64,000 nucleotides of DNA from Vitreimonas flagellata (lineage in GTDB: Bacteria > Pseudomonadota > Alphaproteobacteria > Caulobacterales > Aquidulcibacteraceae). The notes beneath the pieces were generated by a model, which did no database searches, was not told the DNA's origin, and was given only the letters and a program-made list of their open reading frames with translations. The first letter of the stretch is position 1. The number at the start of each line of letters is the position of its first letter. The stretch spans positions 744,001-808,000 of the forward strand of contig NZ_SBJL01000002.1 in assembly GCF_004634425.1 (NCBI RefSeq), written 5' to 3'. Position numbers and translations under genes: made by a program. Shown piece after piece: positions 34,397-59,973 of this stretch.

Positions 34397-34489
34397 ATGA
34401 CCAAGTTTTACAGCCTGATCGCAGCCGCCGCGGTGTTCATGCCCTTCGCGTTCGCCACCGCCACCCAAGCCGCACAAATCGTCGCCTAA
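34397..34489 (+). CDS. 30-residue micropeptide, family copy 1
   Basis: Tiny gene of 30 codons plus stop. The peptide starts MTKFYSLIAAAAVF, has a Lys-then-hydrophobic n/h-region, AFA at residues 18-20 as a possible signal-peptidase site, and ends QAAQIVA. GGGAG lies 9 nt before the ATG. Against copy 2 there are five base changes, four in third codon positions without effect on the protein and one Ala-to-Val; copies 3 and 4 keep the same length and residues at both ends. That pattern supports translation of this frame. Flanked by its own palindrome, 5' hairpin and terminator. No known family; possibly secreted, membrane-inserted, or a dual-function RNA's peptide. Confidence 0.75.
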   Translation: MTKFYSLIAAAAVFMPFAFATATQAAQIVA

Positions 34490-34514
34490 TCGTCCATGCA
34501 AAATCCAGAAAGCT

Positions 34515-34542
34515 AAAGGGCCCGGAGCGATCCGGGCCTTTT
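34515..34542 (+). terminator. intrinsic terminator of micropeptide copy 1
   Basis: AAAGGGCCCGGA and TCCGGGCCTTTT form a 12-bp stem (one G-T) with loop GCGA, running into TTTTGATTT. It ends 5 nt before the convergent UbiH-family stop and could serve both strands. Identical in copy 2. Confidence 0.9.
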
Positions 34543-34547
34543 GATTT

Positions 34548-35813
34548 CTAAGCCGCCAAGCTCTCGCCCCGCAGCAGCTTCGGCAAATCGCCTGCGCCGC
34601 CGCCGGCGTATTTCATAAAGAACCGCCGCGCCGGGCCAACAGCATTCACCGCCGCAAGCCCCAAGCCACGCGCTGCGCGCAGCGGCGTGATGTCGTTAGA
34701 GAACAGCTTGTCGAAAAACTCCATGCCCAACGCCATCGTCACGTTGTCGAAGCGGCGCCAGCGTTGGTAGCGCTCCAGGATTGACACATCCCCCGCATCG
34801 AGCCCCAAGCCCATGCCATCGGCGACGCATTCGGCCAAGGCCGCGCAATCTTTCAAACCTAAATTCAAACCTTGCCCCGCGAGCGGGTGAATGCCGTGCG
34901 CGCTATCGCCGGCGAGCGCCACGCGTTGATCAATCATGCGCTCGGCCAATTGCAACGAGAGCGGATAGCCAAAGCGCGGGCCTTCAAGTTTCAACGCGCC
35001 GAGGAAATCGCCGAAGCGCAAACGCAGCTCGGCCAAAAAATCCGCTTCCGGCATTTTCAGCAACGCATCAGCGGCCGCGCGCGGCTCGGCCCACACAATG
35101 TTCGAGCGCTCGCCCTTCAACGGCAAAATCGCGAACGGCCCATTCGGCAAAAAGAATTCATGCGCCACCGCGTCGTGCGGCTTCTCGTGTTGGATGGTCG
35201 CGACGATCGCCGTCACCGGATAATCCCAACCAATGGTGCGAATGCCCATCGCCGGCCGCACGAACGAGCGCCGTCCATCCGCGCCCACCAACAAGGGCGC
35301 GCGATATTTCCCGCCGTCCGCCAACGTTGCGGTGACGCCCGCGGGATCGCGCTCGATCGCGCTCACCGACATCGGCTGAATCATTTTGATCGAAGGCCGC
35401 GCCTTCACCGCGTTATCGAGCGCCATGCGCACGTGCCGCGCTTCCAGCATCAGCCCAAGCGGCTCATCGTGATCGTGCAATTCGCTGCGATCGAAATGGA
35501 GATGCAGCAGCGAGGCCCCGCCCTTGCGCGCAGCCGCGCCCAAGCGGCCGTCCGTCACCATGATCTGCTCGATCGGCTGCGCCACTTGGTCGAGTTCATC
35601 GCCCATGCCCAGCGCGCGCCACATCCGGTAGGAGGCGAAGGCGATGGCGAAGGCGCGACCGTCAAACGCCGGGGCCAAGGTGTCCGCCGGCTTCGAGGCG
35701 TCGATCACGATCACCGAAACGCCAGCCTGATCCAGCGCCAAGGCCAGCGTTTGCCCCACCAGACCGCCGCCCGAAAGGATCACGTCGGCGTCGAAACCAC
35801 GTCCATTGCTCAT
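34548..35813 (-). CDS. UbiH/UbiF/VisC/COQ6-family FAD hydroxylase
   Basis: About 421-residue flavoprotein monooxygenase, expected to hydroxylate a ring carbon in ubiquinone synthesis. ADVILSGGGLVGQTLALAL near residues 8-27 is the FAD-binding GxGxxG, LLVGADGRRSFVR near 175 the DG motif, and LAGDSAHGIHPLAGQGLNLGLKD split over about 300-320 is the family's GD motif. I placed the start at ATG 35813; an ATG at 35837 and an open frame to 35873 are alternatives, none with a good ribosome-binding site. Convergent with micropeptide copy 1. Confidence 0.88.
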   Translation of the reverse strand: MSNGRGFDADVILSGGGLVGQTLALALDQAGVSVIVIDASKPADTLAPAFDGRAFAIAFASYRMWRALGMGDELDQVAQPIEQIMVTDGRLGAAARKGGASLLHLHFDRSELHDHDEPLGLMLEARHVRMALDNAVKARPSIKMIQPMSVSAIERDPAGVTATLADGGKYRAPLLVGADGRRSFVRPAMGIRTIGWDYPVTAIVATIQHEKPHDAVAHEFFLPNGPFAILPLKGERSNIVWAEPRAAADALLKMPEADFLAELRLRFGDFLGALKLEGPRFGYPLSLQLAERMIDQRVALAGDSAHGIHPLAGQGLNLGLKDCAALAECVADGMGLGLDAGDVSILERYQRWRRFDNVTMALGMEFFDKLFSNDITPLRAARGLGLAAVNAVGPARRFFMKYAGGGAGDLPKLLRGESLAA

Positions 35814-35852
35814 AGCCAACGATAGGCCCGCTGACATTTTTCTGTCGATGCG

Positions 35853-35891
35853 GCCCTGGCGCGCAAGCGCCAAGCAGGGCGCCTCTTTTTT
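35853..35891 (+). terminator. terminator-like GCAA hairpin in the amtB leader
   Basis: TGGCGC-GCAA-GCGCCA, extended after a small bulge by GCCC/GGGC, then TTTTTT at 35886-35891. No plus-strand gene precedes it (the UbiH-family gene is on the other strand), so as a plus-strand terminator it would act as an attenuator about 105 nt before amtB. Confidence 0.45.
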
Positions 35892-35996
35892 GTGCGCTCA
35901 CGCTGCACTGCACTATGGAGAGCTCTTCATACCTTGCTCACCACGCCCAGCGCCCCGCCAATCGCACGGTCCAGATCATCCAGTGGGAGCGGGGTA

Positions 35997-37568
35997 ATGA
36001 CTGCTAAAGAGAATAGGCTGCGGGCGCTGTGGCGTTCGCTTCAAATAGGGGCGGTTTCGCTCGCCGCTGCGTTCGCGCTGACGGCGATCGCGCCCGACAT
36101 GGCGTTCGCGCAAGAGGCGCCGGCCGCTGTGGAAGCGGCGCCTGCGCCAGAAGCTGCTGTGGTTGAAGAAGCCGTGGTGGAAGAGGCTGCGGCGACGATC
36201 ACCGTGCCGGAAGCCAGCGTCGACAAGGGCGACGTGACCTGGATGATGGTCTCCACCGTGCTCGTTCTGCTCATGATTATCCCAGGCCTCGCGCTCTTCT
36301 ACAGCGGCCTGGTGCGCACCAAAAACGCGCTTTCCGTGCTGATGCAGGTCGGCACCGTGACCGTGATTGGCATGATCCTGTACGCGCTGGTTGGCTACAG
36401 CCTGTCGTTCACGACCGGGCCGAGCGCGTTCCTCGACCAATTCATTGGCGGCACGGCGCGCTTCTTCCTGATCGATGGCGCGGACGGTTCGGATCTCTCC
36501 GACAATTTGGTCGCCACGTTCTCCACCGGTATTTATCTGCCGGAACTGGTCTTCATCGTCTTCCAAATGACCTTCGCCTGCATCACCGCGGCGCTGGTGC
36601 TCGGCGGCTTGGCCGAGCGCGTGAAGTTCATCGGTGTCGTGCTGTTCGCCATCCTGTGGCCGCTGCTCGTCTATTACCCGATGGCGCACATGGTCTGGTG
36701 GTGGCCGGGCCCGGATCTGGTTGCGAGCGGCACGCCTGCCGTGGGCGGCTTCATCTGGAATTTCGGCGCGCTTGATTTCGCCGGCGGTACGGTCGTCCAC
36801 ATCAACTCGGGTATCGCGGCTCTTGTCGGCGCGATCGTGATTGGCCGCCGCAACAGCTACAAGAAAGAGCCGATCCCGCCGCACTCGCTGATGATGACGC
36901 TGATCGGCACCGGCCTGCTCTGGTTCGGCTGGTTCGGCTTCAACGCCGGCTCGAACCTGGAATCGAATTATTATTCGGTCCTCGCAATGGCCAACACCTT
37001 CCTCGCCCCGGCGGCCGCTGGCTTCTCGTGGGTGATGGTTGAGTGGCTGACGAAGGGCAAAGCGAGCCTGCTCGGCCTTTGCTCTGGCATCGTCGCTGGC
37101 CTCGTCGCGGTGACGCCGGCTGCGGGCTTCGCTGGCCCGATGGGCGCAACACTTCTCGGCCTCGTTGTCTCTCCGATCTGTTTGTTCGCCTGCTCGGCGC
37201 TCAAGAACATGCTCGGCTATGACGACAGCCTGGACGTCTTCGGCATCCACGGCGTAGGCGGCATCGTCGGCGCCATTGGCACGGGCCTTGTTGTCAACCC
37301 GGCTTGGGGCGGCGCTGGCGTGGTCGATTACGTCAGCTGCGTCGAAGCAGGCGCTGTGCTCGCGACCTGCCCGGTCGCCGAATACAACCTCGTCGGCCAA
37401 GTCACCGCGCAAGCCAAGGGCGTGCTGACCACGCTCGTGTGGTCGGGCGTGGGCTCGCTGATCATCTGGGTTGTCCTTCGCGTGCTGGGTCTGCTGCGCG
37501 TTTCGAAGGAAGTCGAACAGGAAGGTCTCGACGTCGCCGAGCACGGCGAGGCCGCCTACCATCCCTAA
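35997..37568 (+). CDS. amtB: ammonium transporter (AmtB family)
   Basis: 523-residue channel for ammonium/ammonia in the inner membrane. A cleavable signal (about residues 15-38, ending AFAQ) is followed by an Ala/Glu/Val-rich spacer (about 38-75) that would face the periplasm, then eleven membrane helices starting WMMVSTVLVLLMIIPGLALFYSG. The twin-His region shows FGIHGVGGIVGAIGTG near 427 and the first His in VHINSG near 268. GGGAG before ATG 35997 sets the start; the frame is open to 35892. No glnK neighbour, which is unusual for this gene. Confidence 0.94.
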   Translation: MTAKENRLRALWRSLQIGAVSLAAAFALTAIAPDMAFAQEAPAAVEAAPAPEAAVVEEAVVEEAAATITVPEASVDKGDVTWMMVSTVLVLLMIIPGLALFYSGLVRTKNALSVLMQVGTVTVIGMILYALVGYSLSFTTGPSAFLDQFIGGTARFFLIDGADGSDLSDNLVATFSTGIYLPELVFIVFQMTFACITAALVLGGLAERVKFIGVVLFAILWPLLVYYPMAHMVWWWPGPDLVASGTPAVGGFIWNFGALDFAGGTVVHINSGIAALVGAIVIGRRNSYKKEPIPPHSLMMTLIGTGLLWFGWFGFNAGSNLESNYYSVLAMANTFLAPAAAGFSWVMVEWLTKGKASLLGLCSGIVAGLVAVTPAAGFAGPMGATLLGLVVSPICLFACSALKNMLGYDDSLDVFGIHGVGGIVGAIGTGLVVNPAWGGAGVVDYVSCVEAGAVLATCPVAEYNLVGQVTAQAKGVLTTLVWSGVGSLIIWVVLRVLGLLRVSKEVEQEGLDVAEHGEAAYHP

Positions 37569-37598
37569 GCAACGCTCAGGGGTTCTCCTCCTCACTTC

Positions 37599-37624
37599 GG
37601 GCGCGGTTCTTCGGAACCGCGCCC
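37599..37624 (+). terminator. intrinsic terminator after amtB
   Basis: GGGCGCGGTTC and GAACCGCGCCC form a perfect 11-bp stem around a TTCG tetraloop, followed by TTTTTG and TTTTT. Confidence 0.95.
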
Positions 37625-37773
37625 TTTTTGTTTTTACCTTTGTAAACAGCGATTTTTCGCAACCAATATGAACGCGTCCGTAACTCTGTTCGCGCCCGAA
37701 TCTTCACCCCTCGTTTACCCGAAAGGACAACAGTCCCGAACCGGCACAGGCCACCGAAAGGCGCCCCACTTCC

Positions 37774-40191
37774 ATGACCGACGACGCTTACCACCAAGGG
37801 GGAAGAATCCCCTCCGTCGCCAGTTCCTCCGCGGGACGCCTCGCCTTGAAGCGCGCGACAGCCTCCGTGGGTGCGGCCATCCTTGGCGCGTACGGCCTGG
37901 GCGCTGTGCTAACCTATTCGCCGGAAGATCCGAGCCTGAACGTCGCCTCGAACGGCGCGACGCATAATCTCTTCGGCGGCGCGGGCGCTGTCGTTGCTGA
38001 TCTTTCGATTCAAGTGCTTGGCGCTGCAGCGCCGCTCGCGTTCGCGGCGTTGCTTGCGGCCGGTGCGCTGCGCATTGCGCGCCAACAGCTCGTCATGAGC
38101 ATCGATCGGCGTCGCGTGTTCGCCGCGCTCGCAGGGGTACTGTTGCTTGGCGCTGCTGCCGCCACGATTCCAACGCCGGACGGTTGGCCGCTTTCGGTCG
38201 GCTTCGGCGGCATGATGGGCGACGGCGTCGCGGGCTTCATCTCCGGCCTTGCTTCGATGCCGGGCCTGCCATTCCCGCGCGTACTCACAGGTTTGCTCTG
38301 CGCCATCGGCGGCATTCTCGCCATCGGCTGGTCTTTCCAAGTGCGCAAGGAAGACGTGAAGAACGCCGCCGCCACCGCGCGTCGCCTCGCGGACGGCGCA
38401 GGCCAGCGCGCGCAACGCGCCATCTCCTACGTCTCCGACAAAACCCGGCGCGAAGAAGAACCTCTCGATCCGCGCATGTATGAGCGCGCCGCCAACATCG
38501 CGCGCGAAGATCGCGCCCCCGCGCCGGAACAACAACAACCGCAACGCGCCCCGCGTCCCGCACCGCAACGCCCCGCGCCGCGCGCTGAAGCGCCACAACG
38601 CGCCGCAGCGCCGCGCGCTGAAGCCGCGCCCAAGCCCAAGCGCCAACAGCGCGAGCAATCGACGTTCAGCTTCGGCCGTCCGTTCGAATTGCCCGACACC
38701 GATCTGCTGGCCGAACCAAAGCAGCGCATCACGCAAACCGATGCGCAGACGCTGCACGCGATGAGTCGTCAGCTCGAAGGCGTGCTCGCCGACTTCGGCG
38801 TGCAAGGCGAAGTCTTGAGCGCACGCCCCGGCCCCGTCGTAACTTTGTTCGAGTTCGAACCCGCCGCCGGCGTGAAATCCTCACGCGTCATCGGCCTTTC
38901 CGACGACATCGCCCGCTCCATGTCCGCGACCGCCGCGCGCGTCGCCGTCATTCCCGGCCGCAACGCCATCGGCATCGAACTCCCGAACGCCAAGCGCGAG
39001 ACGGTGTATCTCAACTCGCTGCTCAACAGCGCGTCCTTCGTCGGCACGCAAGGCGATCTGCCGCTCGCGCTTGGCGAAACCATCGAAGGCGACCCCTTCG
39101 CCGCCGACCTCACGAAGATGCCGCACTTGCTCATCGCCGGCACCACCGGCTCGGGCAAATCGGTCGGCATCAACGCGATGATCCTGTCGCTGCTCTACAA
39201 GCACACGCCCGACGAGTGCCGCTTCATCATGATCGACCCGAAGATGCTGGAGCTCAGCGTCTATGAGGGCATCCCGCACCTGCTGCACCCGGTCGTGACT
39301 GATCCGAAGAAAGCCGTCGTCGCGCTGAAATGGGTCGTGCGCGAGATGGAGGATCGCTATCGCCGCATGTCGAAGCTCGGCGTGCGCAACATCTCAGGCT
39401 ACAATGAGCGCGTCTCCGACGCCCTCGAACGCGGCGAGCGCCTGGAGCGCACCGTGCACGCGGGCTTCGACCCCACCAGCGGCGAGCCGATCTACGAAAC
39501 GCGCGAGCTGCCGCTTGAGCCGATGCCGTACATCGTCGTCGTCATCGACGAAATGGCCGACCTGATGATCACGGCCGGCAAGGAAATCGAAGCCGCCGTG
39601 CAGCGTCTCGCGCAAATGGCGCGCGCCGCCGGCATCCACGTCATCATGGCGACGCAACGCCCCTCGGTCGACGTCATCACCGGCACGATCAAAGCCAATT
39701 TCCCGACGCGCATCTCCTACCAGGTCACGTCGAAGATCGATTCGCGCACCATATTGGGTGAGCAAGGCGCTGAACAATTGCTCGGCCAAGGCGACCTCTT
39801 GTTCATGGCTGGCGGCGGCCGCATCCGCCGTCTGCACGGGCCCTACGTCACTGACGCCGAAGTCGAACGCGTGGTCGACATGCTGAAGGCGCAAGGCGCG
39901 CCGCAATATCGCACCGACGTCACGCAGGAGCCGAACGAAAACGCCGGCAGCGACGAGCCCGAATTGTTCGCCGATGGCGAGGGCGGCGGCGACGAATTGC
40001 TCGAACGCGCCATCGAGATCGTGCAACGCGACCGCAAGGCCAGCACAAGCTACCTGCAGCGCCGCCTCTCAATCGGCTACAACCGCGCCGCTACGCTGAT
40101 CGAGCGCATGGAAAAGGCCGGGATCATCTCAACCGCGAACGCGGCCGGTAAGCGCGATATTCTCATCGATGAGCTGGAGGATGAGGATTAG
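37774..40191 (+). CDS. ftsK: DNA translocase FtsK
   Basis: 805-residue septal motor that pumps chromosome termini apart and activates XerCD. Hydrophobic N-terminal segments (about residues 30-190) anchor it at the divisome. A Pro/Ala/Gln-rich linker follows (about 235-300), then the RecA-like motor with [16 protein letters not shown] near 455 and [10 protein letters not shown] near 590. The C-terminal gamma winged-helix (about 740-800, [21 protein letters not shown]) reads KOPS. Length is usual for alphaproteobacteria. A TTTAC-N4-GTAAA palindrome lies upstream at 37633-37646. Confidence 0.96.
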
Positions 40192-40488
40192 GGGGCGCGA
40201 GGAGCTAAGCCCTGTGTCGTGGTCCGTCGATGGCGGGTCGCGGCTGACCCATCGTCCAGGAGGCGAGCGTAGGCAGCTGAAGAAGAGCTACGCTTCATTC
40301 AACTCCCCGGCCCAAGCCGGGAAAAACGATCGAACACCGGGGCGCGTGTGAAGCGCGCATCCTCCGCCGCAAGGCGGACACTTTTTTCCACCGCGTGCCA
40401 GCACGCGCCCCGCCTCCCTTTTGAGGCAGTAGGCAAGTAGTTTTAGAAAACCGGCGCGAGCCGGCGCTTCGTCGCGCCTATTGCCTGC
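40192..40488. other. hairpin-rich intergenic region between convergent genes
   Basis: No gene. GGGGCGCGTG (40339-40348) can pair with CACGCGCCCC (40402-40411). The latter can instead pair with CGCGTG just before it across a CCAG loop. Between them is TCCGCC-GCAA-GGCGGA (40363-40378), followed by T6 (40382-40387). Probably a complex terminator zone for ftsK. Confidence 0.55.
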
Positions 40489-41166
40489 CTACTCAATCTC
40501 CCAATCAATCTCACCGCGCACATCAACCGGCACGCGCTCACACAGCGCCTTGTGCAAGCCCGCTTGCGTCGAGCGGCGCGGCGCGCGGAAGACGTAATCG
40601 ATGCGGCGCTTGGAGAACGACTTGTCCTCGTTGATGAGCTTGCAGCCGAGTTCGTCGAGCACGGCGCGATACGCAGCCGCCGCTTCCTTCACGCGGCCTT
40701 CCGGAATCTCATGCACTTCAAGCTCGCACACAGGATGCCCGTCGAACACATAGATAAGGCCCCATGCCACGACGGCGGCGATCACAGCAAAGTGCGGCAT
40801 GTTGAGGCCGGCGATCAGCCCGAGCAGCGTGACGATGATGAGCCGGCCCGTGTCGCGCGTGGAGGCGGTGTCGGTGCGAAAGCGCATCAGGCCGCCAAGC
40901 CCGAAGATCACGAAGCCGACGACCATGCCGTAGGCCAGCACGATCTCGCCGACGACGGCGCCGACCAGGGCGTACATGATGTACACCTTCGGCATTTCCG
41001 CCTCTTCGCGCGTATCAATCGTGCGCGCCGTGGTCGGGTGAAACGCGATCGCCGCGCCCAAAGCTATGGCCAGCGCCAGTGCTGCGATGAATTCCACGAT
41101 CTGCGGCCCGTCGAGAAAACCGGCCCAGCCGATCGACGGCAGCATCTGCGTCGTGTCTGCAAACAT
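40489..41166 (-). CDS. multi-pass membrane protein with RFRT motif (DUF4956-like)
   Basis: 225 residues: about four to five membrane helices in residues 15-140 and a cytoplasmic alpha/beta tail (about 145-225). The segment GLGGLMRFRTDTASTRDTGRL near 83-103, Gly-rich then RFRT, resembles DUF4956-type proteins, of unknown function. ATG 41166 is preceded by GGGGGAC; the frame runs to 41379 but the added residues are not membrane-protein-like. It sits between ftsK and lolA, which are direct neighbours in many relatives, and faces lolA head-to-head. Confidence 0.65.
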   Translation of the reverse strand: MFADTTQMLPSIGWAGFLDGPQIVEFIAALALAIALGAAIAFHPTTARTIDTREEAEMPKVYIMYALVGAVVGEIVLAYGMVVGFVIFGLGGLMRFRTDTASTRDTGRLIIVTLLGLIAGLNMPHFAVIAAVVAWGLIYVFDGHPVCELEVHEIPEGRVKEAAAAYRAVLDELGCKLINEDKSFSKRRIDYVFRAPRRSTQAGLHKALCERVPVDVRGEIDWEIE

Positions 41167-41303
41167 TCCCGTCCCCCGCGAATCTGGTCGTGATAGGATC
41201 AAGAACTTGTGTTGGGGCGTTCGCCAAGCCCACTCGCCGCCCGGATGAACCTGACCTGAACCGAAAACGGCATTTCCGGCCAAAGCGAACCCTTTTTTTC
41301 GCC

Positions 41304-41984
41304 ATGCGTTTCCGCCACATGACACACATGAACAGACGCCTCGCCCTTCTCGGCCTTTCCGCCCTGGTTTTTGCACCAAACGCGCTCGCCCAAGAGCTGC
41401 GCCCGCGCACCAGCGAAGCCGCCACTTTGGTCACGCTCGAAGGCGCCGATCGCGCCGCAGCGCTCGGCCGCGTCAACGCCGCGCTGAACGGCGTGCGCGC
41501 GCTGCAGGGCCGTTTTGTACAAACCTCGCCCGGCGGCAGCCGCGCCACCGGCCAATTCTATCTGCAGCGCCCGGGCAAACTGCGCTTCCAGTACGATCCG
41601 CCCGCCACGCTTTTGATTGTCTCGGACGGCAGCGTCGTCGCCATGCGCGACACCGCTTTGCGCACCACCGAACGCACGCCGCTGCGCTCCACGCCGCTGC
41701 ATTTGATCCTGGGCGAGAACATCAATCTTGAGCGTAACGCCCGCATCATTCGCGTCTCGCAAGCTGGCGAATGGACGGTCGTCACCGCGCGCGATCGCAC
41801 CGGCGAGATGGACGGCGCGCTTTCGCTGCACTTCGACGCCAACACACAATTGCGCTCGTGGGATGTCACCGACGCGACAGGCGCACGCACGCGCGTGACG
41901 TTGTCCGACATTACGCAGCCCGCCAGCCTCGACCGTAACCTCTTCCGCCTGGAGGACGTATTGCCCAATCGTCCGCGTCGTTAG
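41304..41984 (+). CDS. lolA: outer-membrane lipoprotein carrier protein LolA
   Basis: About 226 residues; a periplasmic chaperone ferrying lipoproteins to LolB or the outer membrane. Signal peptide ends NALAQ. The mature part has the unclosed-barrel signature: LNGVRALQGRFVQTSPGG, ATGQFYLQRPGKLRFQYDPP, then VSDGSVVAMRD. Start is uncertain among ATGs at 41304, 41319 and 41328; all give a signal peptide. It precedes xthA, a conserved alphaproteobacterial pairing. Confidence 0.9.
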   Translation: MRFRHMTHMNRRLALLGLSALVFAPNALAQELRPRTSEAATLVTLEGADRAAALGRVNAALNGVRALQGRFVQTSPGGSRATGQFYLQRPGKLRFQYDPPATLLIVSDGSVVAMRDTALRTTERTPLRSTPLHLILGENINLERNARIIRVSQAGEWTVVTARDRTGEMDGALSLHFDANTQLRSWDVTDATGARTRVTLSDITQPASLDRNLFRLEDVLPNRPRR

Positions 41985-42215
41985 GATAAGGCGAGATTGC
42001 GGCGGCCAGCCAAATTTGGAGTGATTTGGCAAGAGGTTTCACCAGCTCAGGTCTTGAATTTTTTCTCAACGTGGCGTAGATACATCAGGCACGGTCGCCG
42101 CAACATCCCCCTGGATTAGCGTCGTCCCCCCCGCTGACCGATCCAGTAGCGGCGACCGCGACAGCCGGTTTTTCCCCTGCCGGCAAAAATAGCGCCCTCC
42201 CTCAAGGCGCAGAGT

Positions 42216-42244
42216 AAGGCCCGGCGCTGAATGCGTCGGGCCTT
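42216..42244. terminator. hairpin between lolA and xthA
   Basis: AAGGCCCG and CGGGCCTT form 8 bp around a 13-nt loop that can pair further. Located 36 nt before xthA; a likely terminator for lolA though the following T-run is poor. Confidence 0.5.
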
Positions 42245-42280
42245 CTCGCTTTTGCGGGCCGCCCGCGCCAAACAGGGCCC

Positions 42281-44999: not shown

Positions 45000-45030
45000 G
45001 CGCCACAATTTTCCATTACCGTTCCAATTG

Positions 45031-47163: not shown

Positions 47164-47177
47164 GTGACTTGCGTCAC
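47164..47177. promoter_or_regulatory. GTGAC-N4-GTCAC palindrome, micropeptide copy 2
   Basis: Perfect inverted repeat plus ATC, 66 nt before the ATG of copy 2, exactly the distance seen in copy 1. TAGTAC follows 19 nt later in both copies and could be the -10. Confidence 0.65.
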
Positions 47178-47243
47178 ATCCATAAGCTTAAGCGCCTAGT
47201 ACCTTGGCTTCATCGGAACACGGGGTTCCGGGGAGCAAAGCAA

Positions 47244-47336
47244 ATGACCAAGTTTTACAGCCTGATCGCAGCCGCTGCGGTGTTCATGCCTTTCGCGTTC
47301 GCGACCGTCACCCAAGCCGCCCAAATCGTCGCCTAA
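47244..47336 (+). CDS. 30-residue micropeptide, family copy 2
   Basis: Same length and residues as copy 1 except Val for Ala at position 22. The 38 bases before the ATG and about 58 bases after the stop are identical to copy 1 although promoter bases further upstream differ at several positions. The gene lies between the pckG terminator and a convergent response-regulator gene. Peptide starts MTKFYSL and ends QIVA. GGGAG precedes the ATG. Confidence 0.75.
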   Translation: MTKFYSLIAAAAVFMPFAFATVTQAAQIVA

Positions 47337-47361
47337 TCGTCCATGCAAAATCCAGAAAGCT

Positions 47362-47389
47362 AAAGGGCCCGGAGCGATCCGGGCCTTTT
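47362..47389 (+). terminator. intrinsic terminator of micropeptide copy 2
   Basis: The same stem and loop as 34515-34542, again ending a few bases before the stop of a convergent gene (47396). Confidence 0.9.
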
Positions 47390-47395
47390 GATTTT

Positions 47396-48085
47396 CTAGA
47401 CCTGCAAGCGATAACCACCCGTCTCGGTGATTAAGAGCTTCGGGCTTTGCGCGTCCGGCTCGATCTTTTGGCGCAGGCGGTAGATGTGCGTTTCGAGCGT
47501 GTGCGTGGTGACGTTGGCGTTGTAGCCCCACACTTCACGCAGCAGCTCATCGCGGCCGACCGGCTTTTCACCGGAGCGATAGAGGTAGCGCAGGATCGCC
47601 GCTTCTTTGTCGGTGAGGCGGATCTTCTTTTCCTGCGAATCGATCAGGAGCCGAACGGCGGGGCGGAATTCATACGGGCCGATGCGATAGACGGCGTCTT
47701 CGCTCGCTTCGTGGCTGCGCAGGTGCGCGCGGATGCGCGCCAGCAACACCGAGAATTTGAACGGCTTCAGCACGTAATCGTTCGCGCCGGCGTCCAGACC
47801 CTGAACCTGTTGCTCTTCTTCTTGCGCTGCGCCCGTCAGCATGATGATCGGCGCTTTGACGCCTTGATCGCGGAGCTGCTTGCAAGCCTCGAAGCCGTCC
47901 ATGTCGGGCAGGCTAACGTCCAGAACGATCGCCGCCGGCTTCTGGTCGGCGGCCGCGACGAAGCCTTCGGCAGCCGAAGCGGCGCCGACGCCCCCGAAGC
48001 CATCTTCGAGGTCGAATTGTTCGACTAACGCCTGACGGAGGTCAGCATCGTCGTCGATAATGAGGATGGTCGTTTCGCGTGACAT
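47396..48085 (-). CDS. OmpR/PhoB-type response regulator
   Basis: 229 residues. Receiver domain 1-122 with acidic pocket DDD near residue 11, phospho-Asp in VLDVSLPDMDG near 55, Thr in MLTG near 83, and Lys in YVLKPF near 107. Winged-helix effector at about 135-228 (LTDKEAAILRYLYRSGE, VTTHTLETHIYRLRQKIE, GGYRL). By wording it resembles the alphaproteobacterial envelope regulator CenR, but I cannot confirm that. No histidine kinase lies beside it. Tail-to-tail with micropeptide copy 2. Confidence 0.92.
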   Translation of the reverse strand: MSRETTILIIDDDADLRQALVEQFDLEDGFGGVGAASAAEGFVAAADQKPAAIVLDVSLPDMDGFEACKQLRDQGVKAPIIMLTGAAQEEEQQVQGLDAGANDYVLKPFKFSVLLARIRAHLRSHEASEDAVYRIGPYEFRPAVRLLIDSQEKKIRLTDKEAAILRYLYRSGEKPVGRDELLREVWGYNANVTTHTLETHIYRLRQKIEPDAQSPKLLITETGGYRLQV

Positions 48086-53367: not shown

Positions 53368-53386
53368 TCGCGGGCGGAGAATTCTG

Positions 53387-53884
53387 ATGCGCGTATGGAT
53401 GGCCAGCCTTTCGCTTCTGCTGCTCGCGGCCTGCGGCTTCCAGCCGATGTATGCGCCTGCCGGCGGCGGCAACGCTATCGGCCCCGTGCAGGTCGGCGAG
53501 ATCGAAGGCCGCGCCGGCCACACGCTGCGCACGGAATTGTCGCGCATTCTTCAGGTCGAGAATGACGGTTCGCCGCCGATGAGCCTTGAGATCAATCTGG
53601 TGGAGAACGTGACCCAGCTTGGCATTCGTCGCGACGAATCCGCGACGCGCGCCGAGCTTCGCCTCACCGCCAATTACGTTCTGACGCCGCCCTCCGGCCA
53701 AGGCCGCGTGATGCGCGGCTCGGTCGTGACGACGGCGAATTACGACATCCCGACCGCGGCCTTCGGCGAAATTGCAGCACAAGACGATGCACGCGATCGC
53801 GCCGCTGAGACGATGGCGCAACGCTTCCGGTCCGAACTCGCGCTGCGCATGGCGCAAGCGCGCTCTGAGAGCGCGGCGCGGTGA
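53387..53884 (+). CDS. lptE: LPS assembly lipoprotein LptE
   Basis: 165 residues; lipobox LLAACG near residue 17, then FQPMYAP. LptE plugs the LptD barrel for LPS insertion in the outer membrane. Weak sequence conservation is usual; identity rests on the size, lipobox, FxPMY opening and position between leuS and holA. GGAG before ATG. Stop overlaps holA by GTGA. Confidence 0.88.
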   Translation: MRVWMASLSLLLLAACGFQPMYAPAGGGNAIGPVQVGEIEGRAGHTLRTELSRILQVENDGSPPMSLEINLVENVTQLGIRRDESATRAELRLTANYVLTPPSGQGRVMRGSVVTTANYDIPTAAFGEIAAQDDARDRAAETMAQRFRSELALRMAQARSESAAR

Positions 53885-54906
53885 AAATCGCCGGCGCCTC
53901 GATCCGGCGCTTCCTCGACAAACCCGACAAGGCCGTCGGCGCTGTTCTGCTCTACGGCCCCAACGAGAGCTTCGTGCACGAAGCGGCCCAGACACTCGCC
54001 GCCTGGGCGCTTGGAAAATCCGATGACCCCTACGCGATCACCAAGCTCGGCGATGACGATCTCAAAAAGGACAGCGCCAAGCTCGCCGACGCATTGTCCG
54101 CGCAATCCCTGCTGGGCGGCCCGACCATCGTATGGGTGCGCGCCAGCGGCAAAGGCAGCGACGACGCCATCCTCGATGCGCTGAGGACAATCGAGAGCGG
54201 CGCGCCGTGCGGCTATCTGATCGTTGAGGCTGGGGACCTCGGTTCGACGGCGACGCTGGTGAAAGAATTTGGCGCGGCGAAAAATGGCGCTGTTATCGCT
54301 TTCTACGAAGAGACCGAAGCCGAGCGCGCACAATACGCCAAGGCGCTCGCGAAAGAGCTGAAAATCGAGTTCGATCGCGACGCCGAGGAGACGTTCCTCG
54401 GCAGCCTGCCGCCCGATCGGGGCCTGGCGCGGCGAGAAGTCGAGAAGCTTGCACTCTATGCCCACAATCTTGGCCGCAAGCTCAGTGTCGAGGACCTCGA
54501 AGCTCTGATGGCGAGCGAAGCCGAAAGCGCGCTCGACGCGGCTTCCCTGGCGGCGGCTCAGGGCCGCGTGGCGCAGGCGGTGGAATCGCTGGCGCGCATC
54601 GACGCGCTCTCCGGCGTCTCGGCGCTGCGCGCCCTGTTGCGGCGGCTGCACCAATTGCGCGAAGCGCGCGCGCTGATCGATCAAGGCATGAGCCCGACAG
54701 ATGCGATCGCCAAGCTACGCCCGCCTGTGTTCTGGAAAGAACGCGACGCGGTCGCCGCGCAAGCGCGGCTCTGGACAGCGAAGAAGCTCAACGCCGCGTA
54801 TGACATGCTCTGGACGGCGGAATTGCGCAGCAAGACCGCAGGCGCGCCGCAAGAATTGATCGCGGCGGACGCTTATCGCGGCGTGGCGAAACTCGTTGGC
54901 AATTAA
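53881..54906 (+). CDS. holA: DNA polymerase III subunit delta
   Basis: 341-residue clamp-loader wrench. AVLLYGPNESFVHEAA near residue 20 replaces the P-loop, followed by LADALSAQSLLGG and a helical collar (about 215-335, LRALLRRLHQLREAR, FWKERDAVAAQARLW). GTG start overlaps lptE. Confidence 0.92.
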   Translation: MKIAGASIRRFLDKPDKAVGAVLLYGPNESFVHEAAQTLAAWALGKSDDPYAITKLGDDDLKKDSAKLADALSAQSLLGGPTIVWVRASGKGSDDAILDALRTIESGAPCGYLIVEAGDLGSTATLVKEFGAAKNGAVIAFYEETEAERAQYAKALAKELKIEFDRDAEETFLGSLPPDRGLARREVEKLALYAHNLGRKLSVEDLEALMASEAESALDAASLAAAQGRVAQAVESLARIDALSGVSALRALLRRLHQLREARALIDQGMSPTDAIAKLRPPVFWKERDAVAAQARLWTAKKLNAAYDMLWTAELRSKTAGAPQELIAADAYRGVAKLVGN

Positions 54907-55009
54907 AGCTGAAAAGCGATTGCACCTGATGCAACGCTGACACGCGCTAACGGCGAGACGTCAGGTCGCGCGGCGCAAAACCTCCTTGAGCCAACTTGAG
55001 GAGACGATC

Positions 55010-55744
55010 ATGCAAGAAAGACTTGTTCGCGTCTGGGATTTGCCCACGCGCGTTTTCCATTGGGCGCTCGTCATCTTGCTGATGGTGGCGTGGTTCAGCG
55101 GCGGCGAGGAAGGCGGCGCGGCAACGCTGCATCGATACGCGGGCGAGGCGATTGCTGGCCTCATTGTCTTTCGCGTTATTTGGGGCTTCGTCGGCAACGA
55201 GCGTGCGCGCTTCCGCGACTTTGTTGCGGGTCCCCGAACCATTATCGAGCACCTCGGCGACCTTTTCCGCGACCAGCCCAAACGGCACCTCGGACACAAT
55301 CCCCTGGGCGGACTCGCCGTGTTTGCGCTGCTCGCACTTGTGACGGCTATGGTGATCACCGGACTGTTCAGCGGCGGGGATGAGATGGCCGGGCCGTTTG
55401 TGGGCATGGGCGGTTTGAACATGGCCGAAGCGCACGAAGCCTTATTTCGTGTTCTGCAAGCCTTCGTGGTGCTTCACCTGATCGGCGTCGCCATTGAATC
55501 CTGGCTCAGCCGCGACCGGCTCGTTCCAGCTATGATCTCCGGCGCAAAGCGACGTCGTGCGGATGAACCCGGTGAGGACGCTCCAGCAGCACACCCCTCT
55601 GCGCTGATCGCAGCCCTAGTTTTCGCGGCTACGACCACATTTGCACTTGCGGCTCAGCCCACGCCAACAACAGGCGACGGCGCGGGTTTCGAGCAAGAGG
55701 ACGGCGAACATGAGCGCTCACTTCTTGGCGACGATGATCATTAG
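55010..55744 (+). CDS. cytochrome b561-type membrane protein
   Basis: 244 residues; four helices with VRVWDLPTRVFHWALVILL near 5-23 (heme His), LHRYAGEAIAGLIVFRVIWG near 39-58, a helix near 105 and LFRVLQAFVVLHLIGVAIES near 145. This is the cytochrome b/b6 domain family that passes electrons to c-type partners. The tail (about 185-244) has an extra membrane segment and an acidic His end (DDDH). GAGGAG precedes ATG 55010. Confidence 0.88.
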   Translation: MQERLVRVWDLPTRVFHWALVILLMVAWFSGGEEGGAATLHRYAGEAIAGLIVFRVIWGFVGNERARFRDFVAGPRTIIEHLGDLFRDQPKRHLGHNPLGGLAVFALLALVTAMVITGLFSGGDEMAGPFVGMGGLNMAEAHEALFRVLQAFVVLHLIGVAIESWLSRDRLVPAMISGAKRRRADEPGEDAPAAHPSALIAALVFAATTTFALAAQPTPTTGDGAGFEQEDGEHERSLLGDDDH

Positions 55745-56517
55745 GGGTGGCGCGGATCCACGAAATCGACGCGGTCTTCGTGGATCTCGTAGTCCCACGA
55801 GCTCGCCTGCGTCCGTCTTGTTTCACGCGCGACGAAATCCACGATGTCGTCACGGTCAGCGAGCGGCGCGCCCGTCTGCGCTTCCCAATGTTGCGGGCGC
55901 GGCAGATCGATGCTGAATTTAACACGGCCGGTGCACATCTCGTGTGAGAAGCGGATGCGCCGCTCGCCCTCAACGTATATGATAACGCCCGCGCGCGCGT
56001 TACCTTCGAACTCCAAGCGCCGCATGAATTTGGCGACGATAGTCTCCATCGCCCGCGCCCGCACCTCCAAATCCGGATTCGGAATCACATTGCCAAAGCC
56101 ATCGCGGTAGATGCGCTCGGCATCACTCGGCTTTTCCTCTTGCGCAGGCGGCGCGGGTGGCTTTGGCGCGGCTACGCCTTCCTCAAGCTTCTCCATACGC
56201 AATTCGTGTCGCCAGCCATCGACGTGATCAATCTCCACGCGGTAGGCCCCCGGCGGCCACGGATACGTGTCGGTGAGAATTTGAATGCTGCCATTGAGGT
56301 GTGATGAGACGGGCGCCTGCACGATGGCCACGCCGTCGGGGCCGATGATGCGCAACTCGCCGTAGTTCGGCCGGCCGGGTTGCGGCAGCCACAGGATCAA
56401 TTGCTGGCAACCGGGATAGCGCGCGAATTGCGTGGAGAGGCGCGCCGCATCTTCAGGCGCGCCGACATTCACCGGCTCCTCCAACACGATCTCGCCCTCA
56501 AAGCCCTCGTCCGCCAT
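55741..56517 (-). CDS. hypothetical protein
   Basis: 258 residues, no signal, not recognised. Residues about 35-110 look like a beta-sandwich (LRIIGPDGVAIVQAP, YPWPPGAYRVEIDHVDGW), then a Pro/Glu linker (about 115-135). A C-terminal domain follows with IIYVEGERRIRFSHEMCTGRVKFSIDLPR and an acidic/Trp-rich end. Shares a 4-nt stop overlap with the convergent cytochrome gene. Confidence 0.6.
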   Translation of the reverse strand: MADEGFEGEIVLEEPVNVGAPEDAARLSTQFARYPGCQQLILWLPQPGRPNYGELRIIGPDGVAIVQAPVSSHLNGSIQILTDTYPWPPGAYRVEIDHVDGWRHELRMEKLEEGVAAPKPPAPPAQEEKPSDAERIYRDGFGNVIPNPDLEVRARAMETIVAKFMRRLEFEGNARAGVIIYVEGERRIRFSHEMCTGRVKFSIDLPRPQHWEAQTGAPLADRDDIVDFVARETRRTQASSWDYEIHEDRVDFVDPRHP

Positions 56518-56560
56518 CGCGCGCCTCCGGCGCTATCGATGTCACGGATGCTGAAAGCGC

Positions 56561-56590
56561 GAAAGCGGCCCCCGGTGGAGGGCCGCTTTC
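56561..56590 (-). terminator. hairpin terminator of the ABC-F gene
   Basis: GAAAGCGGCCC and GGGCCGCTTTC pair perfectly (11 bp) around an 8-nt loop, 59 nt downstream of the ABC-F stop on the minus strand. T-run is poor. Confidence 0.65.
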
Positions 56591-56649
56591 TAAAGGTGCG
56601 CGCAGGGCGGGGGGTGAAAGTGCGCGCCCCTGATGAACGTCAATCCAAG

Positions 56650-58245
56650 CTAACCGTTCCCCACGCCTGACAACATTTCCAGCCGCCGCGTGACGCCTAA
56701 AGCTTCCAAGAAGGTTTCATCGTGACTGACAATCAGCAGCGCCCCGTCATGAGCGCGCACGCCCGCTTCCACGGCTTCGATGGAATCGATGTCGAGGTGA
56801 TTGGTCGGCTCGTCGAGAACGAGCAATTGCGGCGGCGCCTGCCCGCCGAGCACACACGCCAACCCCGCCCGCAACATCTGCCCGCCGCTCAAGGTGCCAA
56901 CGATCTGCAACGCCGCATCCGCGCGGAACATGAAACGCGCGAGCGCTGCGCGGCACGCATTCTCGTCCGCGCCCGGATTGAGCGCCAAGAAATTGTCCCG
57001 GATGGAGAGCGCCGGATCGAGCATGCTGACGCGCTGATCGAGCATCGCCCAAGGCGCCATGACGCGCACTTCGCCCGCCCACGGCGCGAGCGCGCCGGTG
57101 ACGAGCGCCAGCAGCGTCGACTTGCCCGAGCCGTTCGGGCCCGTCACCGCCACACGCTCCGGCCCAACGATCTCCAGCGAGAGGTTCTGAATAATCGGCG
57201 CGCCGATCTCATAACCCGCTGTCACATCGCTGAGGCGCAGCACCTGCTTGCTCGCAGCCAAGCCTGTCGGCGCAAGCGTCACCGCAAACGGTTGTAGCAC
57301 CTCGATCCGCTCGCGCGCGGCGGTGACGTCCGCCGCCGCCTGCTCACGTCGCTTTTCCACGAGACGCGCGTGCTCAGCGCCGGTGTTCTCGGCATTCTCC
57401 TTCATGCCGCCGAGCATGATCTTCGGAATGTCGCCGCGCAGAGCTTTGCGTTTGCCAGCGCTGTCCTTGCGCGCCTTACGTTCGATCGCGGCCTGCGCGG
57501 TGCGTGCGAGATCGACCACGCGCTTCTCCGCGTCCGCCAAATCATGCTGCGCGGCGGCAAGCTCAAGCGCTTTGCGCGCGCGATAGGCGCTCCAATTCCC
57601 ACCGTAGCGCGTGGCGCCGAGGGAGGTCATTTCCACGATCGCATCCATCGTATCGAGTAATTCGCGATCATGGCTGACAACGATCGCGCCCGCTCGCCAT
57701 TCGGCCAGAAGGTCAATGACAGCGGCACGGCCTTCGCGGTCGAGATTGTTGGTCGGCTCATCCAAGATGAGAAAATCGGGCTCCGCGAACACAAGCGCGG
57801 CCAACGCTGCGCGTGTGCGTTGGCCGCCGGAAAGCCTTGCGAGCTTCGTTTCGGCTCCTGCGTTCAAGCCCAATGGCGCCAGCGCCGCTGCCAACCGCGC
57901 TTCGAGCGTCCAATCCGCATGCGTGAGATCATCGGCGTTCGCCTCGCCCCGCTCCGCACGCGCAAGCAAGGCCAGCGCATCGCGCACGCCGAAAAGATCA
58001 GCGATGGTTTCATCCGGGCCGACTTGCACACACTGACGCAATACCGCGATCCGCCCGTTCACGCTGACGCAGCCGCTGCGCGGCGCAAGCTGGCCGGCGA
58101 CGATCTTCAAGAGCGTAGTCTTGCCGACGCCGTTGCGGCCGACGAGACCAGCGCGCTCAGCGCCGAAAGTTAGATCAAGATCGGAGAAAAGAGGCCGGCC
58201 ATCGGGCAACGCCCAGGCGAGCTTGGAAACAACAATAGACGACAT
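56650..58245 (-). CDS. ABC-F family ATPase
   Basis: 531-residue soluble protein with two ABC domains and no membrane part; ABC-F proteins act on ribosomes. First domain: VGRNGVGKTTLLKI near 34, LARLSGGQRTRAAL, LILDEPTNNLD. Second: VTGPNGSGKSTLLAL near 365, LSGGQMLRAGL, LVLDEPTNHLD. Starts at ATG 58245; an in-frame TTG at 58269 is less likely. Whether housekeeping or antibiotic-protecting cannot be told. Confidence 0.9.
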   Translation of the reverse strand: MSSIVVSKLAWALPDGRPLFSDLDLTFGAERAGLVGRNGVGKTTLLKIVAGQLAPRSGCVSVNGRIAVLRQCVQVGPDETIADLFGVRDALALLARAERGEANADDLTHADWTLEARLAAALAPLGLNAGAETKLARLSGGQRTRAALAALVFAEPDFLILDEPTNNLDREGRAAVIDLLAEWRAGAIVVSHDRELLDTMDAIVEMTSLGATRYGGNWSAYRARKALELAAAQHDLADAEKRVVDLARTAQAAIERKARKDSAGKRKALRGDIPKIMLGGMKENAENTGAEHARLVEKRREQAAADVTAARERIEVLQPFAVTLAPTGLAASKQVLRLSDVTAGYEIGAPIIQNLSLEIVGPERVAVTGPNGSGKSTLLALVTGALAPWAGEVRVMAPWAMLDQRVSMLDPALSIRDNFLALNPGADENACRAALARFMFRADAALQIVGTLSGGQMLRAGLACVLGGQAPPQLLVLDEPTNHLDIDSIEAVEAGVRAHDGALLIVSHDETFLEALGVTRRLEMLSGVGNG

Positions 58246-58367
58246 GAGACGCACATTTCCCGCAGGCAATCCGACAAAGGGTTTGGCTGTCAGGCGATGT
58301 TCACGTGCGCGCGTCCTTCAATGCTGAGCGCTCAAGATAGTCGGATTGGCGTGCGCATCAAGAGGCG

Positions 58368-59585
58368 CTAACCGGCCGTCTGCACGACCCGCGCGTGTTC
58401 GACGCTCATTTCGTCTTGCCGCACCGCGCTCATGAGCGCTGCGTGCACGATCGGCGTCACGGTTTCCATCCGCCCATCATTGCATGCCGCCGCCGCGGAT
58501 TTCTTCGCGACAGGATCGACCAAAACTTCAGCGTACCACATGGAATTGGTGCCGTTGTGCCAAAGGCCGCCGTTGCGGAGGTACCAACCGAGCGCGTAAT
58601 CGCCGCCGAAGGGCGGCGTGTGCATCAAATCCCACGTCTCGCGCTTCAAGAAATCCGCTTTGTCGCGGTGCGCATTGAGATAGGCGATGAGGTCCGGCAG
58701 CGACGCGTGCGTTGACCCCGCCGGCGCCCATGCGCTCGGGATATCGGCAATGCCCTCGCCGGGCGGGTGCGGCGTGATGCTTTGGGTGAACCAAGACGCA
58801 TGGCCGACCGGTTGCGGCGCGCCCTGCTCGCTCAAACCGGGTGGACCAAAGCCGGCCGATTGCATGCCCAGCGGCGTGAACACGTGCGCGCGCATCAACT
58901 CTTCCCACGGCGCGCCGAGTTTCGCCTCCAGCATCGCCGCCGCGATCACGTAACCGCTCTGCGAATATTCGAACGCGGTTTCGCGCGGACCGGCGGGCTC
59001 CTGACGCAACGCGTAACGCGCCACCACACGGCGACTTTCTCGCGCGTCCTCCTCTCTCAGCGGCAAACCTAGCATGCCGACGTCCATCACATCGGTTTGC
59101 AGGCCAGCACGGTGCGAGAGCAGATGAAGGAAATTGGCGCCACGATACTCCTCGCGCACCTCCGGCACGAATTCGCCCAACACGTTTTCAATCGTATCGA
59201 GCCAATCGATCAGACCGGCTTCAACACAACGCGCAACCAAGGTGGCCGTCATGGATTTGGTGATCGAACCCAGATGCCATTGATCGGCAATGGTCACCGG
59301 ATCATCGGCGCCGCGACGGCGAACGCCCGACACCCATCCGATCACAGGTCCGGACTCGGCCTGGACGGCTGCGGCCAGAGCCGGCGAGCCGGTGATTTCG
59401 CGCAGGCGCGTGAGCTCCAATTCGGTGAGCTGCGCCGGCGGGGCGGGTGGCGGCGCAACCGGCCTGCGCGGCGCCTGGTTGGTGACTTGTTGTTGGACCA
59501 ACGGCGCGCCGCACGCCGTCACGGCGACGGCGGCGATCCCGGCGCCCACGCGCCGGCGTGTCACGCTTACGCCACCGCCGTTCAA
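58368..59585 (-). CDS. beta-lactamase-family serine hydrolase, lipoprotein
   Basis: 405 residues. Basic start TRRRVGAGIAAVAVTACG with lipobox TAC, Pro-rich linker, then the class C-like fold: nucleophile in SITK near residue 110, second motif FEYSQSGYVIAAAM near 205 (YSQ where YSN/YAN is usual), and a late HNGTNS. Likely an esterase or peptidase. TTG 59585 is 5 nt after GGGGG; GTG 59564 is an alternative start. Divergent from micropeptide copy 3. Confidence 0.85.
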   Translation of the reverse strand: MNGGGVSVTRRRVGAGIAAVAVTACGAPLVQQQVTNQAPRRPVAPPPAPPAQLTELELTRLREITGSPALAAAVQAESGPVIGWVSGVRRRGADDPVTIADQWHLGSITKSMTATLVARCVEAGLIDWLDTIENVLGEFVPEVREEYRGANFLHLLSHRAGLQTDVMDVGMLGLPLREEDARESRRVVARYALRQEPAGPRETAFEYSQSGYVIAAAMLEAKLGAPWEELMRAHVFTPLGMQSAGFGPPGLSEQGAPQPVGHASWFTQSITPHPPGEGIADIPSAWAPAGSTHASLPDLIAYLNAHRDKADFLKRETWDLMHTPPFGGDYALGWYLRNGGLWHNGTNSMWYAEVLVDPVAKKSAAAACNDGRMETVTPIVHAALMSAVRQDEMSVEHARVVQTAG

Positions 59586-59664
59586 GCCTTCCCCCGTTCA
59601 ACCGCGCCAAACCGTTGTTCCGGGATCAGGCCCAAGTCAAGCGATCGCCTCCGGTGAGCCGGGC

Positions 59665-59678
59665 GTGACTGAGGTCAC
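59665..59678. promoter_or_regulatory. GTGAC-N4-GTCAC palindrome, micropeptide copies 3-4
   Basis: Third perfect copy of the inverted repeat, again followed by ATC, 74 nt before the ATG of copy 3. Surrounding bases differ from copies 1-2, so the palindrome has been kept while its flanks changed. Confidence 0.65.
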
Positions 59679-59712
59679 ATCGCCAAGAGTGGGGCGCAGG
59701 TAGGTTCTGTTC

Positions 59713-59732
59713 ATCGAAGCGACGCCGCTTCG
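59713..59732 (+). promoter_or_regulatory. 5' UTR hairpin, micropeptide copies 3-4
   Basis: TCGAAGCG and CGCTTCGA form a perfect 8-bp stem with loop ACGC, ending 6 nt before GAGGAGCAAAGCCA. Different sequence from the copy 1-2 hairpin but the same position. Confidence 0.5.
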
Positions 59733-59752
59733 AGACCTGAGGAGCAAAGCCA

Positions 59753-59845
59753 ATGACCAAGTTTTACGCCCTGATCGCCGCCTGCACAGTGTTTGCCCCG
59801 ATGGCTTTCGCCACGTTGAACCAAGCAGCGCTTATCGTCGCCTGA
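59753..59845 (+). CDS. 30-residue micropeptide, family copy 3
   Basis: 30 codons; starts MTKFYALIAACTVF, then AFAT at 18-21 and ends NQAALIVA. GAGGAG lies 9 nt before the ATG. Compared with copies 1-2 it has Ala6, Cys11 and a different middle but keeps length, the MTKFY start, Gln24 and the IVA end. IAAC at residues 8-11 fits a lipobox pattern. First of a tandem pair, 35 nt before copy 4, with no terminator between. Confidence 0.72.
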   Translation: MTKFYALIAACTVFAPMAFATLNQAALIVA

Positions 59846-59880
59846 TCGGCCCCGCCCAACCCAAATTCGAGAACAACCCA

Positions 59881-59973
59881 ATGACCAAGTTCTACGCCCT
59901 GATCGCCGCTTGCGCCGTGTTCGCACCGATGGCGATGGCCACACTCAGCCAAGCCGCTCAAATCGTCGCGTAG
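59881..59973 (+). CDS. 30-residue micropeptide, family copy 4
   Basis: 30 codons; starts MTKFYALIAACAVF and ends SQAAQIVA. Most base differences from copy 3 are in third positions. The ribosome-binding site is weak (GAGAAC), so it may be translated less than copy 3. Co-transcribed with copy 3 and followed by a strong terminator. Confidence 0.72.
   Translation: MTKFYALIAACAVFAPMAMATLSQAAQIVA

Follow-up and report, generated by a model that had tools for sequence, protein, structure and literature searches.

A large family of 30-codon, signal-like peptide genes with two conserved promoter types in Vitreimonas

The 64,000-nucleotide stretch of the Vitreimonas flagellata genome analysed here (G000:C2:744001-808000, from an assembly of 3.91 Mb in 16 contigs; hereafter, the window) contains four very short open reading frames (ORFs), all on the plus strand and each, by translation, exactly 30 codons long: copy 1 (MTKFYSLIAAAAVFMPFAFATATQAAQIVA, 34397..34489), copy 2 (MTKFYSLIAAAAVFMPFAFATVTQAAQIVA, 47244..47336), copy 3 (MTKFYALIAACTVFAPMAFATLNQAALIVA, 59753..59845) and copy 4 (MTKFYALIAACAVFAPMAMATLSQAAQIVA, 59881..59973). 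The lysine at position 3 (K3) is the sole charged residue in these peptides. Copies 3 and 4 are separated by 35 bases and served by one shared promoter. A preliminary description of the window had reported mostly silent divergence among these ORFs, and this is what we find: copies 1 and 2 differ at five bases, four of them silent third-position changes and one producing an A>V replacement, and 14 sense codons differ between copies 3 and 4, 10 of them silently. Its account of four members spread over 25 kb was right about the members but too low in its count, as a hidden Markov model (HMM) built from 14 members retrieves 24 copies from the genome (E ≤ 0.01).

The similarity between copies 1 and 2 is not limited to the ORF; it spans a whole unit, from operator to terminator, outside which the two loci are unlike. 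The unit of copy 1 opens with the palindrome GTGAC-N4-GTCAC (the class A operator, 34317..34330), centred at -41.5 from a putative transcription start at 34365, and continues with the -10 element TACGTT (34353..34358), a 5' hairpin CGGAAC/GTTCCG (34367..34383), a Shine-Dalgarno sequence GGGGAG (34383-34388) that abuts this hairpin and has one base in common with it, the ORF, and a terminator hairpin AAAGGGCCCGGA/TCCGGGCCTTTT (34514..34543). In the unit of copy 2 the operator lies at 47164..47177 and the -10 element TACCTT at 47200..47205 (predicted start 47212), and both the 5' hairpin (47214..47230) and the terminator hairpin (47361..47390) are identical in letters to those of copy 1. The two-gene unit of copies 3 and 4 has its operator at 59665..59678, the -10 element TAGGTT at 59701..59706 (predicted start 59713), a 5' hairpin TCGAAGCG/CGCTTCGA at 59714..59733, and a terminator (60002..60047) consisting of a hairpin at 60002-60037 plus a T-run. 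All these elements are on the plus strand, and in each window unit the terminator begins about 25-30 bases past the last stop codon.

Convergent minus-strand genes follow copy 1 (FAD-binding protein, 34548-35873) and copy 2 (response regulator, 47396-48085), and a Gcw_chp (PF09694) protein of unknown function is encoded directly 3' of copies 3 and 4 (60071-60835). A short ORF followed by a terminator, with alanine-rich peptides, is also what attenuator leader peptides of downstream genes would look like; we give this idea an almost negligible probability, as copies 1 and 2 abut their convergent neighbours, so that no same-strand gene comes directly after these two copies.

The recurrence of the family in the genome is far beyond chance. 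A degenerate DNA pattern for the N-terminus matches 12 places, against none for its reversed control, and tblastn with copy 4 as query reports 26 places at E ≤ 10, although the two weakest (E 0.7 and 1.3) are unconvincing. A search of related genomes, as the preliminary description had proposed, recovered HMM members in 29 of the 30 genomes of the genus (1-24 each), the single miss being a genome that is 57% complete. Beyond the genus the family thins out fast: 31 of 249 genomes sampled from the order match the HMM at E ≤ 0.01, of which 22 belong to the same genus, 7 to other genera of the family and 2, weakly, to another family, and the window's own genome is the sole match among 385 genomes sampled from the class (E ≤ 0.001). 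The exact C-terminal pattern occurs in 58 stretches among 84,980 public species genomes, all of them from metagenome-assembled genomes titled Hyphomonadaceae, Caulobacterales, Caulobacteraceae or Alphaproteobacteria. According to PMC12700997, Vitreimonas, Terricaulis and Aquidulcibacter together form the sister clade of Hyphomonadaceae, and the GTDB taxonomy would place the window near this clade.

A short-ORF scan of the family loci yielded, at E ≤ 0.1, 191 members that are distinct in their context; the 148 members at E < 1e-4 that are exactly 30 residues long represent 126 distinct peptides. Many loci had been fetched by amino-acid patterns, which conditions residues 1-10 or 20-30 and thereby lowers the ratio of replacement to silent changes (pN/pS) and inflates conservation there; the 53 distinct peptides matching neither pattern were used for unconditioned conservation, HMM membership itself favouring likeness in such sets too. 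The pN/pS is 0.25 over codons 11-30 in 40 sequences retrieved through the N-terminus only (20 disjoint pairs) and 0.28 in 56 sequences matching neither fetch pattern (25 pairs); these values supersede a conditioned estimate of 0.21 and leave the conclusions unchanged. In a syntenic relative (G023), the counterparts of copies 1-4 differ from them by 4, 8, 4 and 6 silent and by 0, 2, 1 and 0 replacement codon changes, in total 22 against 3 (stop codons omitted; the left of two G023 copies paired with copy 1). The reading frame is thus under purifying selection. The preliminary description had counted a lack of frame conservation across related genomes as one half of the case against genuine genes; the frame proves to be conserved. 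Among the 53 peptides outside the fetch patterns A10, P16 and Q24 are invariant, and A18 (52), A26 (52), A25 (51), A30 (48), K3 (47), I28 (45) and V29 (45) come close; lysine or arginine occupies position 3 in all 53, and in 125 of the 126 distinct peptides.

The promoter region is conserved as well. Scored as GTGA-N6-TCAC (at least 7 of 8 bases, within 160 bases upstream), the class A site precedes 99 of 136 first-in-unit members (4.4% in shuffled sequences), in 97 cases 78-107 bases before the start codon, and only 2 of 46 second-in-pair members. When these 97 promoters are aligned, they read GTGACC-N3-GTCACAKCG, then TANNTT starting 36 bases from the first base of the site, then TCATCGAA with an A (76%) at position 48. 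Taking the hexamer as positions -12 to -7, we infer that transcription starts at the position-48 A and that the site is centred at -41.5. A palindrome centred at -41.5 with a -10 element at fixed spacing is the geometry of class II promoters of the CRP/FNR type, and the 97 aligned promoters, with the start site so placed, conform to it. They share with such promoters the GTGA-N6-TCAC palindrome, its centre and the fixed -10 spacing, and depart from them in that a single peptide family accounts for most of the exact sites in the window's genome. The exact site, GTGACNNNNGTCACRKC, occurs at 10 distinct places in the whole genome (11 hits, one site being read on both strands; control 0), and 8 of the 10 serve the family. 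The two exceptions, G000:C2:151837 (L166) and G000:C2:427695 (L169), are the only exact class A operators outside it, and stand before a 137-aa ORF that looks secreted and has no Pfam match and before a membrane-like ORF of 95 aa, respectively.

Of the 30 genus genomes 24 contain the extended class A promoter, as does 1 of 31 other relatives; the reversed control gives one hit over all 61. Every genus genome with 7 or more copies has it; the six that do not (two of them less than 80% complete) have 0, 1, 3, 4, 6 and 6 copies. By eye, a listed member lies at the usual distance from at least 6 of 6 such sites in the window's genome, at least 4 of 4 in G023, at least 4 of 6 in G009, at least 5 of 10 in G020 and at least 4 of 5 in G027; other genes may also depend on the class A site, most of all in G020. 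As for the regulator, we have candidates only: eight CRP/FNR-type genes in the genome score above the PF13545 cut-off, and none of them is linked to a class A promoter.

About a quarter of the promoter-proximal copies carry, in place of the class A palindrome, a second element, GCATCC-N16-GCATCT (class B). Its core, GCATC...GCATC, is present before 35 of the 39 first members that have no class A site at the right distance (0.02 expected in shuffles), with a spacing of 22 bases in 34 of them and 21 bases in one. An element of this type also occurs in 14 of the 97 class A promoters, one of these having a doubtful class A site. The full motif occurs nine times in the window's genome (control 0): three times in a peptide array at C2:279-280 kb, three times before DUF2807 genes, once before a DUF6249 gene, once before a secreted-looking 111-aa ORF and once in an unclear context. 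The site linked to DUF6249 sits between that gene and an operon for an extracytoplasmic function (ECF) sigma factor, G000:C1:1094213-1095079 (L191), which comprises the sigma factor and a putative membrane partner, together with DUF6249 genes. Among 17 orthologous loci (≥67% identity), 14 have the motif in the same position, 13 of them exactly and one with GCATCC as the second half; in 13 loci of the paralogue of this sigma factor one looser match was found, elsewhere (shuffles give 0.013 per locus). Because the motif recurs beside its operon in 14 of the 17 orthologous loci, this ECF factor is the likely reader of class B promoters, and the same element before DUF2807 genes suggests an envelope regulon. 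Two conserved elements 16 bases apart, recurring beside the sigma operon in relatives, are familiar from ECF regulons; here, however, the element precedes micro-peptide arrays as well as DUF2807 and DUF6249 genes, and to our knowledge GCATCC-N16-GCATCT is not among the described ECF promoter motifs.

The array just mentioned (G000:C2:279175-280684) lines up five different paralogues, which are separated by promoters of class A and class B and by terminator-like hairpins. Similar paralogue arrays are seen in several other species (L125, L135, L138, L145, L153).

Signals for the translation and termination of a short messenger surround the ORFs across the family. A Shine-Dalgarno-like sequence precedes 129 of 136 first ORFs (28 of 136 in a control stretch) and 35 of 46 second ORFs (control 1 of 46), and 98 of 134 last-in-unit members have a terminator-like site behind them (4.6% when shuffled); the three terminators in the window fold with z of -2.96, -2.96 and -4.49 relative to shuffles. 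In 34 bases starting 4 before the predicted transcription start, a stem scoring at least 5.5 is present in 65%, or about two thirds, of the 97 class A units and in 8% of shuffles. Its arms differ among units yet are complementary (CGAAGC/GCTTCG, GGAAC/GTTCC, GGAAGC/GCTTCC, CGGGGC/GCCCCG, CGGATC/GATCCG). Frame selection, conserved promoter, ribosome-binding site and terminator together support the earlier proposal that these short, signal-like peptide ORFs form a genuine gene family.

Compact transcripts with varied but complementary hairpin arms, a terminator and arrays of single units are also reminiscent of sibling small RNAs, in which the ORF would be incidental or part of a dual function. 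We regard a functional RNA as highly improbable: the excess of third-codon-position changes, the pN/pS of 0.25-0.28 and amino-acid invariants that persist through base changes all point to the peptide. Moreover, no strong stem is found in 35% of the 97 class A units, and in copies 1 and 2 the 5' stretch, folded alone, is predicted to form a short stem yet is not unusually stable as a whole (z -0.30; -2.58 for copies 3 and 4). An Rfam scan of the window at gathering scores returned tRNA only. The same hairpin, lying beside the ribosome-binding site of multicopy genes for short and hydrophobic peptides, also recalls type I toxin-antitoxin systems, in which a hydrophobic toxin is silenced by an antisense RNA or by 5' structure. 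This too is improbable, although less so than a functional RNA: in folds of the window copies, which are predictions for short stretches only, the hairpin extends at most as far as the Shine-Dalgarno sequence, which stays unburied, the short distance from stop codon to terminator leaves little space for an antisense gene, and a tblastn search with one member matched none of 72,556 plasmid and 50,697 phage records at E ≤ 1.

Comparison with G023 bears on the turnover of the units. Copies lie at the same positions for all three window loci, with aligned flanks 84-90% identical. At the locus of copy 1, G023 has about 3.3 kb that are absent from the window, beginning just past the terminator of its first copy (window 34547 versus L226:4580-7860, reverse complement) and containing a second peptide copy 3.1 kb from the first. 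An insertion in G023 or a deletion in the window would account for the difference; plain recombination between the two G023 copies is inadequate, because the window also lacks the 188 bases that follow the second copy. This extra copy, and the likeness of copies 1 and 2 that stops at operator and terminator, might be taken to indicate a mobile or repetitive cassette resembling repetitive extragenic palindromes, with an incidental ORF. Such a cassette is very unlikely in view of the synteny of all three loci, the coding selection on the ORF, the absence of the C-terminal pattern from viral contigs and the lack of plasmid or phage matches to the one member searched. Sorting of 102 loci gave 23 flank groups, the largest of which (44 loci) was probably merged through common domains; these varied groups offered no functional clue, and a link to a single neighbouring function was dropped.

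The two positions of the two-gene units are held by different peptides. In 44 tandem pairs (43 second peptides, one being unalignable), phenylalanine or tyrosine occupies position 19 in 40 of 44 first peptides and 7 of 43 second ones, and C11 is present in 16 of the 44 first peptides but in 39 of the 43 second ones; kinship among the genomes inflates the p-values of these comparisons. This asymmetry means that two subtypes hold the pair positions in fixed order, as copy 3 (F19 subtype) and copy 4 (C11/M19 subtype) do in the window. In second-of-pair peptides (e.g., 59881-59973) C11 gives an IAAC string, lipobox-like but very near the start. A lipobox cysteine is expected at 15-35, and the family as lipoproteins was rejected, as C11 is too near the start by this rule and occurs in just 49 of 126 distinct peptides.

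The first 20 residues of the peptides look like a Sec signal, with K3, a hydrophobic core and P16-x-A18-x-A20; this P-x-A-x-A at 16/18/20 has the textbook form of a leader-peptidase c-region. The AFA/AMA-type cut site that the preliminary description had pointed out holds as a motif across the family: alanine occupies position 18 in 124 of the 126 distinct peptides and alanine or serine position 20 in 115, 114 fitting both, and outside the fetch patterns the counts are 52, 47 and 46 of 53. Along residues 16-30 conservation rises and falls with period 2 (p 0.007 as one of 20 uncorrected angle-and-stretch tests, and 0.004-0.006 in a set of four overlapping samples), which favours an extended, protease-bound stretch and hence a predicted cut after residue 20. 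Helical (100 degree) periodicity in conservation was not detected in the stretches tested, and a conserved helical face was discarded as an explanation. The peptides are most likely exported by Sec and probably cut after residue 20 to a peptide of about 10 residues of the TLNQAAQIVA type, under a stress or envelope programme.

The main rival to this reading is that the full 30 residues stay uncleaved in the inner membrane as a single-span micro-protein, N-terminus inside, tuning a membrane partner or the envelope under stress, as CydX, AcrZ, KdpF and MgtS do. Its constant length of nearly always 30 residues, the lone charge at K3 in the window copies and constraint along the whole peptide are what a membrane micro-protein would show, and several observations count against export and cleavage at the same time as they suit this alternative. 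The signal part (residues 2-20, pN/pS 0.29) is nearly as constrained as residues 21-30 (0.24), which weighs against cleavage because faster drift would be expected of a signal peptide that is discarded; conservation at K3 and A10 equals that of the putative mature part; and 12 of the 126 peptides (7 of the 53 outside the fetch patterns) have no acceptable 18/20 pair, mostly owing to V or T at 20. Position 18 is also stricter than position 20, although -1 is the strictest position of leader-peptidase sites. Two further points tell against the proposed regulation of the family rather than the fate of its products: 5 of 10 extended promoters in G020 have no family member behind them, among the members listed, and none of the eight CRP-type genes has an exact class A site at its own locus, so that self-regulation was abandoned as a route to the class A regulator. 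Against retention in the membrane stand the leader-peptidase c-region, the lack of a 100-degree periodicity in the stretches tested and the varied neighbourhoods, which share no adjacent gene for a membrane complex. We see such retention as quite possible, and place cleavage after residue 20 slightly ahead. CydX, AcrZ, MgtS and MgtR, single-span proteins of enterobacteria, resemble the present peptides in being short, having one hydrophobic stretch and being likely to escape annotation. They are, however, single-copy genes with one partner each, as opposed to up to 24 paralogues, arrays, paired units and an AxA motif here, and have no sequence relation to the family in the libraries searched.

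We therefore tentatively favour, with rather less than even confidence, autonomous and lineage-specific micro-peptide genes under CRP/FNR or ECF control, whose products would be exported by Sec, cleaved and used as envelope or population signals. A CRP/FNR-type activator would bind GTGAC-N4-GTCAC at -41.5 and switch on a short mRNA that often begins with the 5' hairpin, contains a single 30-codon ORF or two of them and stops at a terminator of its own; further paralogues, frequently arrayed, would be activated by the ECF sigma factor that would also drive DUF2807 and DUF6249 envelope-type genes. The first 20 residues would take the peptide into the Sec route, leader peptidase would most likely cut after residue 20, and TLNQAAQIVA or a variant of about 10 residues would be freed into the periplasm or to the outside, two-gene units providing two distinct peptides. 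The regulation suggests an envelope or physiological stress programme; that the released peptide acts as an envelope or population signal is a guess. A bolder version, which we consider rather unlikely, is a Gram-negative peptide signalling system in which two dozen paralogues, giving TLNQAAQIVA-type decapeptides singly or in ordered pairs under two separate programmes, a CRP/FNR-type operator devoted mainly to this family and an ECF sigma regulon, produce a peptide mix that reports the state of the cell to its own envelope or to its neighbours. Gram-positive pheromone precursors, including pheromones cut from lipoprotein signal peptides, are likewise short exported precursors with a conserved C-terminal peptide, export being a prediction in our case. 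The present peptides differ from them in belonging to a Gram-negative lineage, in having a 30-residue precursor two thirds of which is signal-like, and in that no receptor is known.

The preliminary description had recognised no known short-peptide family, and library searches agree. The four window peptides have no Pfam match at E ≤ 10, 28 members give only stray hits (E 0.1-0.9) in NCBIfam and PHROGs and no match in PADLOC, and PDB sequences contain no match at E ≤ 1. A description of the family was not found in the literature (titles and abstract starts, partly best-ranked matches, with subscription papers and preprints mostly outside the coverage), and the peptide gene family has apparently not been described before. 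These micro-proteins make up a large family that is clearly under selection and has regulation of its own, in a lineage that is mostly uncultured and is related to Hyphomonadaceae and the Caulobacterales. As such the family would offer a clean case for the role that exported peptides of about 10 residues play in Gram-negative bacteria, while the two conserved types of promoter provide direct handles on when the peptides are produced.

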